DNA of 33,923 nucleotides. Source: Burkholderiales bacterium. GTDB lineage: Bacteria > Pseudomonadota > Gammaproteobacteria > Burkholderiales > Burkholderiaceae_C. Shown piece by piece: positions 9,384 through 28,976 of this stretch; the first letter of the stretch is position 1; each line of letters starts with the position of its first letter. The position numbers were made by a program, and so were the translations under genes. A model generated the notes under the pieces. The model searched no databases, was not told the DNA's origin, and saw only the letters and a list, made by a program, of their open reading frames with translations. Location of the stretch: assembly GCA_017302655.1 (NCBI GenBank), contig JAFLDE010000042.1:1-33923 (forward strand). The letters run 5' to 3'.

Positions 9384-10583
9384 TCACGCGGCCAGGCGCG
9401 CCAGCTTGTCGATGGCGACGCGCAGGCGCAACTCGTGCGGTGCCAGGCTGTGCGTCACCGCCTGGCTGGCCAGGCGGGTGTCGCGCGGCACCGGTTCGGT
9501 GAGCGGATTGCCACTCTTGCCGATCAAGGCGGCCACCAGGGGCTCGGTGGCGCCTGACCCGCGGCGCACGACCATGCCCTCTTCGCCACTGGCCAAACGC
9601 ACGAAGCTGCCGGGCGGGTAGAGGCCGACGGCCTTGATGAGGGCTGCGCCGGCTTCGTCCTGCTGGCGCAACTCGTCCAGGAAGATGGCTCGTGAGGCCT
9701 GCGCGCCCGCCTGGGCCTTGCGCGCCACGCGCGGAGACAGGCGCGCCGCGAACTGGTCCACGCGCATCAGCAGGCGGGCTAGGCGCTCGCCCACGGCACG
9801 GCCGCCCAAGGGCCCCGGCGCCGCATCGTGGTGCAGGCGCACCGCCTGCAGCCAGTTCGCGTCGTGCACGCCCATCCGCATCAGCAGGTCGGCGGCACGG
9901 TCGCCATGGTCGGCCAGTTGGCGCTGCTGGTCCGCGTTCAGGCCCTCTCGTTGGTGGGTCAGGCGATCCTGCAGCAGCCCCAGTGCCAGATTCATGGACA
10001 GCGCGGCGCGGGTCAGGGACTCCTGCTCCGCGTGCGGCCACTCCAACCGCTCGGCCGCCAGCTGCGCCAGCACCATGCACAGCAGGGCATGGCGGGCGGT
10101 GTAGTGCTGGATCTCCTGGCTGGCGTCGTGCACGGCCAGCATGAGGGTCTGGTCCGGATGGCGCTGCAGGCGCTCCAACGCCTCCTGGCGCAGCGCCTCG
10201 AAGCGGCTCAGGAAGTGCTCGGCCTGCGGTTCGCGCAGCAGCTGGTGGGTGCGCAGCTGCAACTCCTGCCATTGCGCGGCGTCGCCGGCCTCGGCCACGG
10301 GGCGGGCGCGCTCGGTGCTGAAGTCAGGGCGGACCCGGGCGATCTCACCGAGGCTGGCGTTCTGGTGCACCAGCGCGTTGGCGCGCTCGGTCATCTCGCG
10401 CCGGTAGTTTTCGGTCTCGTAGGCCTGGGTGTAGGCGCCGCGCGCCAGCAATTCGCGCACGGCCTCGCTGGCGGGCAAGACCGAGCCGCTCGCAAACAGC
10501 AGCTTCCCGCTGGCGTCGCGCAGCGAGAACGCCAGGCGCTGGCCCGGGCGCAGGGCGTTGGGAGGGAGTCGAACCAGGTCCAT
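9384..10583 (-). CDS. HD-GYP-like protein with a degenerate active site
   Basis: About 399 residues from ATG 10583. The order of segments follows HD-GYP phosphodiesterases of cyclic-di-GMP: YTARHALLCMVLAQL (161-175), ALSMNLALGLLQDRL (194-208), HGDRAADLLMRMGV (226-239), VRLHHD (248-253) and MRVDQFAARLSPR (273-285). However, the HD pair is replaced by MN at the expected place, and HHE..DGSGYP is reduced to HHDAAPGPLGG. It is therefore probably not a normal phosphodiesterase. The C-terminal 100 residues (GLYPPGSFVRLASGEEGMVVRRG) match the tail common in Burkholderiales HD-GYP-like proteins. A longer frame reaching 11750 runs antisense to metH and is rejected. A role as a c-di-GMP receptor or scaffold is inference. 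Confidence 0.78.
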   Translation of the reverse strand: MDLVRLPPNALRPGQRLAFSLRDASGKLLFASGSVLPASEAVRELLARGAYTQAYETENYRREMTERANALVHQNASLGEIARVRPDFSTERARPVAEAGDAAQWQELQLRTHQLLREPQAEHFLSRFEALRQEALERLQRHPDQTLMLAVHDASQEIQHYTARHALLCMVLAQLAAERLEWPHAEQESLTRAALSMNLALGLLQDRLTHQREGLNADQQRQLADHGDRAADLLMRMGVHDANWLQAVRLHHDAAPGPLGGRAVGERLARLLMRVDQFAARLSPRVARKAQAGAQASRAIFLDELRQQDEAGAALIKAVGLYPPGSFVRLASGEEGMVVRRGSGATEPLVAALIGKSGNPLTEPVPRDTRLASQAVTHSLAPHELRLRVAIDKLARLAA

Positions 10584-10611
10584 CAGCGGCGCCCGGCCGC
10601 CCGGAGCCGCT

Positions 10612-10663
10612 GAGCGCCCCCTTGGGGGGTGGCGAGCGATCGTGAGACTGGGGGCATGTCTCA
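10612..10663. repeat. GC-rich palindromic intergenic repeat upstream of metH half 2
   Basis: CCCCC-TT-GGGGG (10617-10628) is followed by GGCGAGCG and a second hairpin TGAGAC/GTCTCA (10643-10648 with 10658-10663). This layout is typical of dispersed palindromic intergenic repeats in Burkholderiales genomes. A similar arrangement (C-run, short loop, G-run, then a GACTG-containing stretch and G-run) occurs in the mreC/mreD insert at 28326-28368. It lies between the divergent HD-GYP-like and metH genes and could terminate transcription on either strand. Confidence 0.5.
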
Positions 10664-27406: not shown

Positions 27407-28288
27407 GTGGCCCTTGCCACGCTCGACCGCCGCCCGCCCTCGCTGTTCCGCCAGGGCCCCACCGCGCTCTCCAAGCTGCTGCTGTGCGCGGCCGCTGCCA
27501 TCGCGCTGATGGTGGCCGACGCCCGCTTCCAGCTCACGCCCCCGCTGCGCTCGGCGCTCGTCAACGCCCTGCAGCCGCTGCAGAGCCTGCTGCTCGCACC
27601 GGTGGCCAGCTACGACCAGCTGAGCAACCGCCTGCGTGGCGCCGAGAGCGCCATGCGCGCGGAGGAGACCGCCCGGCAGCAGCTCGCCCAGCAAGCGCTC
27701 GTGCTGGCGCGCACCAACACCCTGCAGCGCGAAAACGAAGCCCTGCGCCGCTTGCTGCAGCTGCGCGACAGCCTGCCTGTGCAGACCCTGGCGGCCCAGG
27801 TGCTCTACGAACAGCGAGATGGCTTCTCGCGCCGAGTCGTCATCGACCGCGGAGCCGCTGACGGCCTGCGCCCCGGTGCCCCGGTTATCGACGAGCGCGG
27901 CGTGCTCGGCCAGCTGCAGCGCGTGCACCGCAGCGTCAGCGAACTGGGCCTGCTGGCCGACCGCGACGCCAGCATCGCCGTGCGCAACCAGCGCACCGGC
28001 GTGCTGCATCTGGCTTATGGCGGCGCCCAGCCCTGGGGCATGGAACTGCGCTTCGTGAGCAGCAGCGTGGACGTGCAGGTGGGCGATGTGCTGCGCACCT
28101 CGGGCCTGGACGGCGTCTTCCCGCCCGACCTGCCGGTGGCCCGTGTGGCCCAAGTGGAGCGACGCGGCGACACCAGCTTCTCGCGCATCGGCGTGCAACC
28201 CTACGCGGTGGCCGACCGCGCCGGCCAGGTGCTGGTGCTCAAGCCGCTTGCACAGGTCGAACAAGCGAAGCAGGAAACCGCGCCATGA
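27407..28288 (+). CDS. mreC: Rod-shape-determining protein MreC
   Basis: A 293-residue bitopic membrane protein starting at GTG 27407 with GAGGAGAG just upstream. A short cytosolic segment, one transmembrane helix (KLLLCAAAAIALMVADARF), a periplasmic coiled coil (about 75-125) and beta-barrel-like MreC domains (AQVLYEQRDGFSRRVVIDRGA, PVIDERGVLGQLQRV, DVLRTSGLDGVFPPDLPVA) follow in the normal order. It links MreB to PBP2 in the elongasome. Its stop (28286-28288) overlaps an ATG at 28285 that was probably the original mreD start; see the repeat at 28279-28466. Confidence 0.97.
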   Translation: MALATLDRRPPSLFRQGPTALSKLLLCAAAAIALMVADARFQLTPPLRSALVNALQPLQSLLLAPVASYDQLSNRLRGAESAMRAEETARQQLAQQALVLARTNTLQRENEALRRLLQLRDSLPVQTLAAQVLYEQRDGFSRRVVIDRGAADGLRPGAPVIDERGVLGQLQRVHRSVSELGLLADRDASIAVRNQRTGVLHLAYGGAQPWGMELRFVSSSVDVQVGDVLRTSGLDGVFPPDLPVARVAQVERRGDTSFSRIGVQPYAVADRAGQVLVLKPLAQVEQAKQETAP

Positions 28289-28466
28289 TCATGCCGAAGG
28301 CTTACCCCCTGGGCGCCTGCGGCGCCTTCCCCCCGAGGGGGATCGGCCGGCGCGGGACTGAGACGGGGCCGAGCAAGCCCGGTGGGCTTGCGACGCCTGT
28401 CGAAGGCCGAGGCCTCTGCGCCGAGGCGGCCCGGCGCCGACCGAGGAGCGCGCCATGATCATGCCG
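28279..28466 (+). repeat. 18-bp direct repeat flanking a 152-bp insert in the mreC/mreD junction
   Basis: CGCGCCATGATCATGCCG is present at 28279-28296 and again, base for base, at 28449-28466. The 152 bases between are GC-rich and palindromic: GGCGCC-TGC-GGCGCC, CCCCC-CGA-GGGGG and GCAAGCCC-GGT-GGGCTTGC (28373-28391), ending in GAGGAG. The repeated 18-mer contains the palindrome CATGATCATG and the mreC stop/mreD start overlap. The layout fits a small non-coding repeat element inserted with duplication of its target, or an element-mediated tandem duplication. No transposase is present. Confidence 0.75.
28285..28458 (+). CDS. Possible 57-residue linker ORF inside the mreC/mreD insert
   Basis: From the ATG that overlaps the mreC stop, a frame runs 57 codons to a TGA at 28456-28458 that in turn overlaps the mreD ATG. 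The peptide begins MIMPKAYPLGACGAFPPRG, sharing MIMP with MreD, and is otherwise low-complexity, Gly/Pro/Arg-rich, with no family resemblance. It is probably not a functional protein, but its translation would carry ribosomes from mreC to mreD. Confidence 0.3.
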   Translation: MIMPKAYPLGACGAFPPRGIGRRGTETGPSKPGGLATPVEGRGLCAEAARRRPRSAP

Positions 28467-28976
28467 CGCGGCCAGCAGCGCCTGCTGCTCCCCGCCAAGC
28501 CCTGGTTCATCGTGCTGACGCTGCTGCTGGCGCTGTGCGTCGACATGCTGCCGCTCGGGCCGGCGCCGGCCATGCCCCTGGTGTCGGCACTGGTGCTGGT
28601 GTTCTGGAACGTGCACCAGAGCCGGCGCATCGGCGTGGGCTGGGCTTTCCTGCTCGGGCTGCTGGTCGATGTGAGCCAGGGCGCGCTGCTGGGTCAGCAT
28701 GCGCTGGCCTACGCCGGGTTGGCTTTCGCGGCAGTCAGCCTGCATCGGCGCCTGCTGAAGTTCAACGTGCTCGAGCAGGCGCTGCAGGTGCTGCCGCTGT
28801 TCCTGCTGGCGCAGGGTCTGGTGGTGCTGGTGCGCCTGCTCGTGGGCGGTATGGCGCCTTCGCCCTGGCTGCTGGTGGCGCCGCTGCTGCAAGCCCTTTT
28901 GTGGCCGCTGGCCCACCTGCTGCTGCTGGCCCCGCAGCGCCGCACGCCGGGAGGCGACGAGCCCCGGCCGCTTTGA
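28455..28976 (+). CDS. mreD: Rod-shape-determining protein MreD
   Basis: A 173-residue inner-membrane protein with about five helices (WFIVLTLLLALCVDMLPLG, VSALVLVFWNVHQSRRIGVGWAFLLGLLVD, LAYAGLAFAAVSLHRRLL, LPLFLLAQGLVVLVRLLVG, PWLLVAPLLQALLWPLAHLLLL). It is part of the elongation complex. ATG 28455 has GAGGAG six bases upstream, supplied by the inserted repeat. Seven bases separate its stop from the mrdA start. Confidence 0.95.
   Translation: MIMPRGQQRLLLPAKPWFIVLTLLLALCVDMLPLGPAPAMPLVSALVLVFWNVHQSRRIGVGWAFLLGLLVDVSQGALLGQHALAYAGLAFAAVSLHRRLLKFNVLEQALQVLPLFLLAQGLVVLVRLLVGGMAPSPWLLVAPLLQALLWPLAHLLLLAPQRRTPGGDEPRPL

Follow-up and report, generated by a model that had tools for sequence, protein, structure and literature searches.

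Overlaps of the ATGA or TGATG type couple genes by termination-reinitiation, and a gap of ~20 nt nearly abolishes this coupling, according to two reports (PMC10666635, PMC6728339). Two families of repeats resemble the arrangement studied here. In PMC12548453 the mycobacterial MIRUs (Supply 1997) are described as short, apparently mobile sequences found inserted at start codons, each with an ORF coupled at -4 nt to the gene at that site, and PMC10969869 describes the Rickettsia palindromic elements (RPE) as repeats integrated in frame into ORFs. Here we analyse an mreC/mreD junction located in a window of 33,923 nucleotides (the whole stretch of DNA under study) from a genome of the genus Inhella. 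The junction contains a mini-ORF that we call a relay, meaning a tiny ORF that begins within the mreC stop (ATGA) and ends within the mreD start (ATGA). A ribosome terminating on mreC could thus reinitiate at the relay and once more at mreD. Our preferred reading, which we hold to be probable, is that a relay already present at mreC/mreD was later entered in frame by an element of a dispersed family, of which the copies that keep the stop-to-start chain have been retained.

A mini-ORF between mreC and mreD

A repeat search of the window returned the exact 18-mer CGCGCCATGATCATGCCG twice at the mreC/mreD junction (Table 1). The copies lie 170 bases apart from start to start, with 152 bases between them, as reported in a preliminary description of this DNA. 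By simple arithmetic with equal base frequencies, the chance of an exact 18-mer repeat within ~350 bases is about one in a million, a figure that is somewhat higher for GC-rich DNA. The linker also holds two copies of ATGATCATGCCG, and the sequence CATGATCATG, claimed to be a palindrome, reads as a perfect one. The 57-codon frame that had been proposed to keep a stop/start overlap at both ends indeed does so, with ATGA in both places. Its predicted peptide matched no Pfam family.

Table 1. Features of the mreC/mreD junction and of the second element copy in the window
Feature	Position	Strand	Basis and remarks
mreC	27407..28288	+	ORF; Pfam MreC, 1e-33; stop TGA 28286-28288 inside ATGA
18-mer, copy 1	28279..28296	+	100% identity; contains mreC stop and relay ORF start codon
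Relay mini-ORF, 57 codons	28285..28458	+	ATG 28285 to TGA 28456-28458, which overlaps mreD ATG at 28455; ATGA overlap with mreC and with mreD
Insert relative to G003 linker	28299..28442	+	144 nt = 48 codons, in frame; gapped linker alignment
Element left module CCCCC..CCCCCCGAGGGGG	28305..28341	+	read from sequence
Internal cassette, common to copy at G000:C9	28377..28436	+	78% identity, E 4e-7, own genome
GAGGAG, Shine-Dalgarno-like	28443..28448	+	six bases 5' of mreD ATG
18-mer, copy 2	28449..28466	+	contains relay stop and mreD start
mreD	28455..28976	+	ORF; Pfam MreD, 1.3e-12
Second element copy, canonical	10573..10654	-	model R1, 82.6 bits; one of 40 training members
24-codon ORF through second copy	10583..10657	-	translation; ends TGATG at next gene's start

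The preliminary description attributed the 18-base repeat to the insertion itself. On that account an element would have entered where mreC and mreD simply overlapped by ATGA, and the 18 bases of target duplicated in the process would have restored a start codon at both ends. The exactness of the two 18-mers speaks for this, as does the four-base overlap that had been expected in relatives, which is present as ATGA in four of the five congeners examined. The expectation fails for the fifth, G003, whose 26-base linker has ATGA at both ends and no insert.

Further junctions show that duplicated starts recur at this place. We assembled 80 named loci, G003 and the window, 82 in total, and set two aside whose mreC end was unclear. 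Among the 80 usable junctions, which as related sequences are not independent events, mreC and mreD overlap directly in 50 and are separated by a spacer in 30. One or two mini-ORFs chained through stop/start overlaps bridge 26 of these 30 spacers, whereas spacers with shuffled interiors chain in 24% of cases; in the other four the mreC stop has no start codon in it. The mreD start ATGATCATG is duplicated within several linkers, and three linkers are made up of paired units of the same size (29+29 in two cases, 26+26 in one). At E up to 0.1, none of the 80 named junctions held an element recognised by the covariance model described below. When any in-frame mreD start was allowed, a second set of 68 junctions gave 50 direct overlaps (some of which may also duplicate named loci), 10 relays and 8 junctions without a chain, two of the latter (L413 and L446) looking like location errors from the printed sequence. 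L416 and L423 probably duplicate the genomes of L164 and L178, whose linkers they share, which leaves 8 new relays among the 10; L413 likewise shares its linker with L159. Since duplicated ATGATCATG start regions with a mini-ORF occur without a recognised insert, a target duplication is not supported as the source of the 18-base repeat. Judged from their sequences, relays seem to have arisen by duplication of the region around the mreD start, and they come and go among relatives.

Comparison of filled and empty linkers bears on the same point. The G003 linker encodes MIMLNRSAP and that of the window MIMPK-(48 codons)-RSAP; the two align on either side of a single gap of 144 nt, the right flank RSAP of the window included. 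The alignment with G003 also covers AGGAGCGC, at the GAGGAG region of the window linker. The GAGGAG motif had been described as the end of the insert; it is present at the distance given, and is better read as probably part of the older linker. In a tree of mreC, mreD and part of mrdA, G003 groups with I. gelatinilytica and I. proteolytica and the window genome is placed weakly (0.30); as G003 is not its sister there, the two linkers may be separate duplications.

A second pair comes from another genus. The linker of G112 (L434) contains an element copy recognised by the model (41.9 bits, E 1.5e-7), and that of L202, a MAG, has no element and is shorter by 75 nt (25 codons). Apart from one mismatch the left flank ATGATCATGCAGACC and the right flank CCGGGAGGCGCGTC are the same in both, the linkers being identical at 28 of 29 positions. 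An empty linker thus matches both sides of a filled one, which argues against a repeat made by the insertion, and the pair is our best evidence that a relay with its repeated start can be present first and receive an element later. The linkers agree this well although the two genomes are not close: over 600 nt of mreC they show 417 identities, 118 mismatches and 130 gap positions (~78% identity at aligned positions). This counts against our preferred reading.

Finally, we examined the flanks of 49 copies of the element. Flanking repeats scoring at least 8 were found for 7 copies, against 2.1 expected from mispaired flanks, and repeats scoring at least 9 for 5 copies, against 0.85, so that a minority with long flanking repeats (12 in L074; 9 in L048, L102 and L115) does favour a duplicating insertion. 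These repeats have no constant length, and a constant-length target duplication, a MITE trait, was absent across the 49 copies; in the CACTGA subfamily part of the apparent flanking repeat is the element's own stem. Bracketing by 18-base duplications, proposed as a check on other copies of the insert, is not a feature of the family. Together with the linkers of relatives these flanks disfavour an 18-base target-site duplication, and we regard the entry of the element into a plain overlap as unlikely.

A dispersed family of hairpin elements

By its alignments, the mreC/mreD insert is a diverged, cassette-bearing relative of an ~80-nt hairpin element. The search that led to this family went from a copy at G000:C9, whose neighbouring genes look like lptB and rpoN on inspection, through BLAST to the core pattern CCCCCAGTCTC, which has 64 matches in six Inhella genomes, against 6 for the reversed control. 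The G000:C9 copy has the canonical left end, and the cassette that it has in common with the insert aligns over 60 nt (Table 1). Alignment of the whole insert to this copy scored 82, compared with 33 +/- 5.9 for 300 shuffles (maximum 55). The insert itself is without the canonical AGTCTC left end, and against covariance model R1, trained on 40 Inhella copies, it gave no significant full-length match, the best one covering 13 positions (28329-28341) with 10.8 bits. The prediction that related copies would be found elsewhere in the same genome was borne out.

The short form of the element has three hairpins, namely a small one, one of the C5/G5 type and a right one whose stem varies and whose loop is fairly constant; long forms have an internal cassette, in either orientation as judged by eye. 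In the 40 copies 95% of stem cells are paired, and covariation amounts to 0.476 against 0.116 after shuffling. Three of five structure measures exceeded all 500 shuffles; the other two did not stand above them (9 pairs changed on both sides where the shuffles gave 8.4, and 23 further pair types where they gave 22.8). The nine variable pairs comprise 328 Watson-Crick cells, 29 unpaired cells and 3 G-U cells, where 24.9 G-U would be expected under column independence, and this scarcity of G-U fits a constraint on DNA better than one on RNA. Six pairs of copies occupy apparently the same sites: stems are identical in two pairs, and the other four show six both-side and five one-side changes, which we do not take as proof of compensatory change. 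At the apparently shared sites L065/L102 and L064/L069, in two species, the stems differ yet still largely pair. A search of Rfam gave no family at the gathering threshold within the window and, for 10 element loci, just two weak matches to a microRNA family, away from the element.

Model R1 has 55 matches in the window genome and 11 to 32 per congener at E 0.01, and it detects the element in 102 of 120 genomes (E 0.001) of the family of the window genome, which we take to be Burkholderiaceae in the GTDB sense. In a class-wide sample at E 0.0001, 3 of 143 genomes matched, namely the window genome, a second genome of its family and a MAG labelled as belonging to a different family. Outside the family the element was thus found in 1 of 141 other genomes across the class, the family label not being given for 120 of the negative genomes.

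The second copy in the window precedes a 399-aa ORF that has no Pfam match, and an ORF for a B12-dependent methionine synthase adjoins it on the opposite strand; the arrangement is therefore not confined to places with a co-directional gene immediately upstream. Locus L074 holds two copies in tandem. The tandem copy matches two Variovorax plasmids, and an Azoarcus plasmid over 27% of the query; on a Variovorax plasmid the same arrangement precedes an annotated permease start. The mreC/mreD insert had no match in plasmids or phages. Arrays of two to four adjacent element matches were observed at L264, L286 and L288 and at G118:C1:2692256-2692585. We also sought a mover at 10 Y1_Tnp loci of six Inhella genomes. 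As no element match was found in their fetched flanks at E up to 1, a RAYT was rejected as the mover.

Position and phase of element copies

The fetched loci contain 155 unique Inhella copies, of which 150 were classed by codon usage. Relative to both neighbours, 119 are sense, 25 antisense and 6 mixed. The sense copies lie mostly at junctions (111), with 7 in frame within genes and 1 running over; the antisense copies are divided between positions in frame within genes (12) and positions after a stop (12), with 1 running over. The element is accordingly in frame inside a gene in 19 of the 150 cases, gene frames being taken from codon usage only. An antisense in-frame copy within recQ (identified by eye) is seen in three Inhella genomes, at L043, L072 and L085 (G000, G005 and G001).

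These positions also serve to weigh the possibility of a cis-acting RNA structure retained for a regulatory role, as an attenuator or coupling hairpin, in place of a mobile repeat. The strong covariation of the element and its prevailing sense orientation between co-directional genes would fit such a role, as would the junctions common to congeners noted below. We nevertheless find it improbable, given the near lack of G-U pairs, the copies in frame inside genes on either strand, the tandem copies, the variation in site presence between congeners and the absence of an Rfam family.

Applying a stricter rule, we retained 109 junction copies, 87 of which have an upstream stop within 40 nt, and 68 of which were testable. 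The 87 near-junction copies form 73 clusters, 13 of them with more than one member. ATG or GTG precedes the element in 74 of the 87 and is missing in 13, and 7 are without a clear downstream start. We scored the chain as kept when the ORF opened by the first start crosses the element and terminates between -30 and +8 of the next start. This is the case for 55 of the 68 testable copies, and for 45 of 58 when orthologous sites are counted once; among the 13 broken chains 5 fuse in frame, 5 overrun and 3 stop early. The exit is tight (+4, +1, -1, -2) in 45 of the 68. As a matter of sequence arrangement only, 27 copies end in a 4-nt overlap, 4 in a 1-nt overlap and 12 with one base between stop and start.

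When halves of different Inhella copies were mispaired, a mean of 24.5 chains was obtained, and never more than 35 in 2000 permutations. For other genera we took the best-scoring places at 49 loci, which yielded 52 unique copies, 45 with both neighbours sense and 37 testable. The chain is kept in 30 of these 37, compared with 19.6 after mispairing and at most 29 in 5000 permutations; the 7 broken chains comprise 4 fusions and 3 early stops. A shifted-frame control was partly trivial, as the +1 frame of ATGA is a stop, and the phase claim rests on the permutations. The suggestion in the preliminary description of selection or tolerance at gene overlaps holds to the extent that related repeats do sit at stop/start junctions in the window's own genome and in relatives, with an insertion phase far from random.

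It could be argued that there is no coupling at all, the open frames reflecting GC-rich sequence devoid of stops and the overlaps arising by chance. Indeed, the element is hardly more open than its shuffles (of 40 copies, 34 are open in all three forward frames and 19 in all six, where the shuffles gave 31.1 and 16.9), and mispaired halves still chain in about one third of Inhella cases and about one half of those in other genera. Shine-Dalgarno scores do not separate first from second starts (n=68; score at least 4, 20 against 15; at least 5, 6 against 9), which counts against our preferred reading. Yet permutations that keep composition never reach the observed counts, and the mreC/mreD spacers chain far more often than their shuffled versions, which leaves chance with very little credit.

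Empty orthologous sites were found for the trpS, purK, grxC and hinT copies (names by eye) in 4, 4, 4 and 3 alignable congeners, respectively; alignment failed for two hinT relatives and, in the other species, for the gene that follows argB. At these sites the aligned flanks are 2 to 41 bases apart with no element between them, and ATGA is present in most of the intervening stretches. The stretch from first to second start in the same four copies has its ATG at the beginning because of how we cut it; its TGAx ending was no part of the cutting rule, and in the argB copy this ending is missing. At the trpS junction of G003 (L398), the place of the window genome's long copy is taken by another hairpin-rich sequence, 145 bases in length.

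Mechanism and comparison with known systems

According to our preferred reading, a long-form element with its cassette would have landed in frame in the relay ORF of mreC/mreD, lengthening it from ~9 to 57 codons without bringing in a stop. Relay ORFs would be translated and reinitiation would feed mreD. The element itself would move, or have moved, as DNA and with the help of an enzyme. Because published coupling is confined to overlaps and very short gaps (PMC10666635), expression should suffer from an insertion between coupled genes unless its frame hands the ribosome on, and the survivors would presumably be those insertions that kept the stop-to-start chain. A phase bias is what such selection would leave, and our phase statistic, in two samples, suggests that intergenic insertions have been filtered in this way. 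The relays also suggest that coupling may take two steps, by way of mini-ORFs, in an operon for cell shape, whose proteins can be expected to depend on a suitable ratio.

A wider generalization can be offered tentatively, and we think it possible rather than probable. The element would then be a DNA-hairpin mobile family of most genera of one large betaproteobacterial family, and translationally transparent: many copies would read ATG...TGAx between a stop and a start and so form a relay ORF each, their stems would be kept paired or rewritten at the DNA level, and they would even invade existing relay ORFs such as that of mreC/mreD.

We found no description of the hairpin element, its hairpins or mreC/mreD relays among the literature matches listed, which mostly do not cover subscription journals, and a search with the element's own sequence gave nothing on bacterial repeats among the matches listed. 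None of the six terms sought occurs in the text of PMC3733652, on palindromic repeats. The principle of keeping the chain is already known, because MIRUs are described in such terms (PMC12548453).

Known cases of termination-reinitiation link two genes directly, whereas the mreC/mreD spacer is bridged by a third, mini-ORF. The hairpin element is short, abundant and palindromic, as REPs and REPINs are, and differs from REP/REPIN-RAYT systems in its absence from the fetched flanks of the 10 Y1_Tnp loci. REPs are not known to have a coupling ORF. The in-frame copies within genes recall RPEs; most copies of the hairpin element are, unlike these, intergenic with an ORF of their own, and its hosts and sequence are others.

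The likeness to MIRUs is closer. The ORF of the hairpin element exits at the downstream start with a short overlap, most often of 4 nt in terms of sequence arrangement, and the junction copies in Inhella, the empty sites in congeners and the tandem copies may reflect a mobility like that attributed to MIRUs. Its hosts belong to another phylum, it is strongly structured with covarying stems, and it also exits by one-base overlaps and one-base gaps. By analogy of arrangement, the hairpin element appears to work like the mycobacterial MIRUs. If translation bears this out, it would be a second case of the principle proposed for MIRUs, one for which many more genomes are available.
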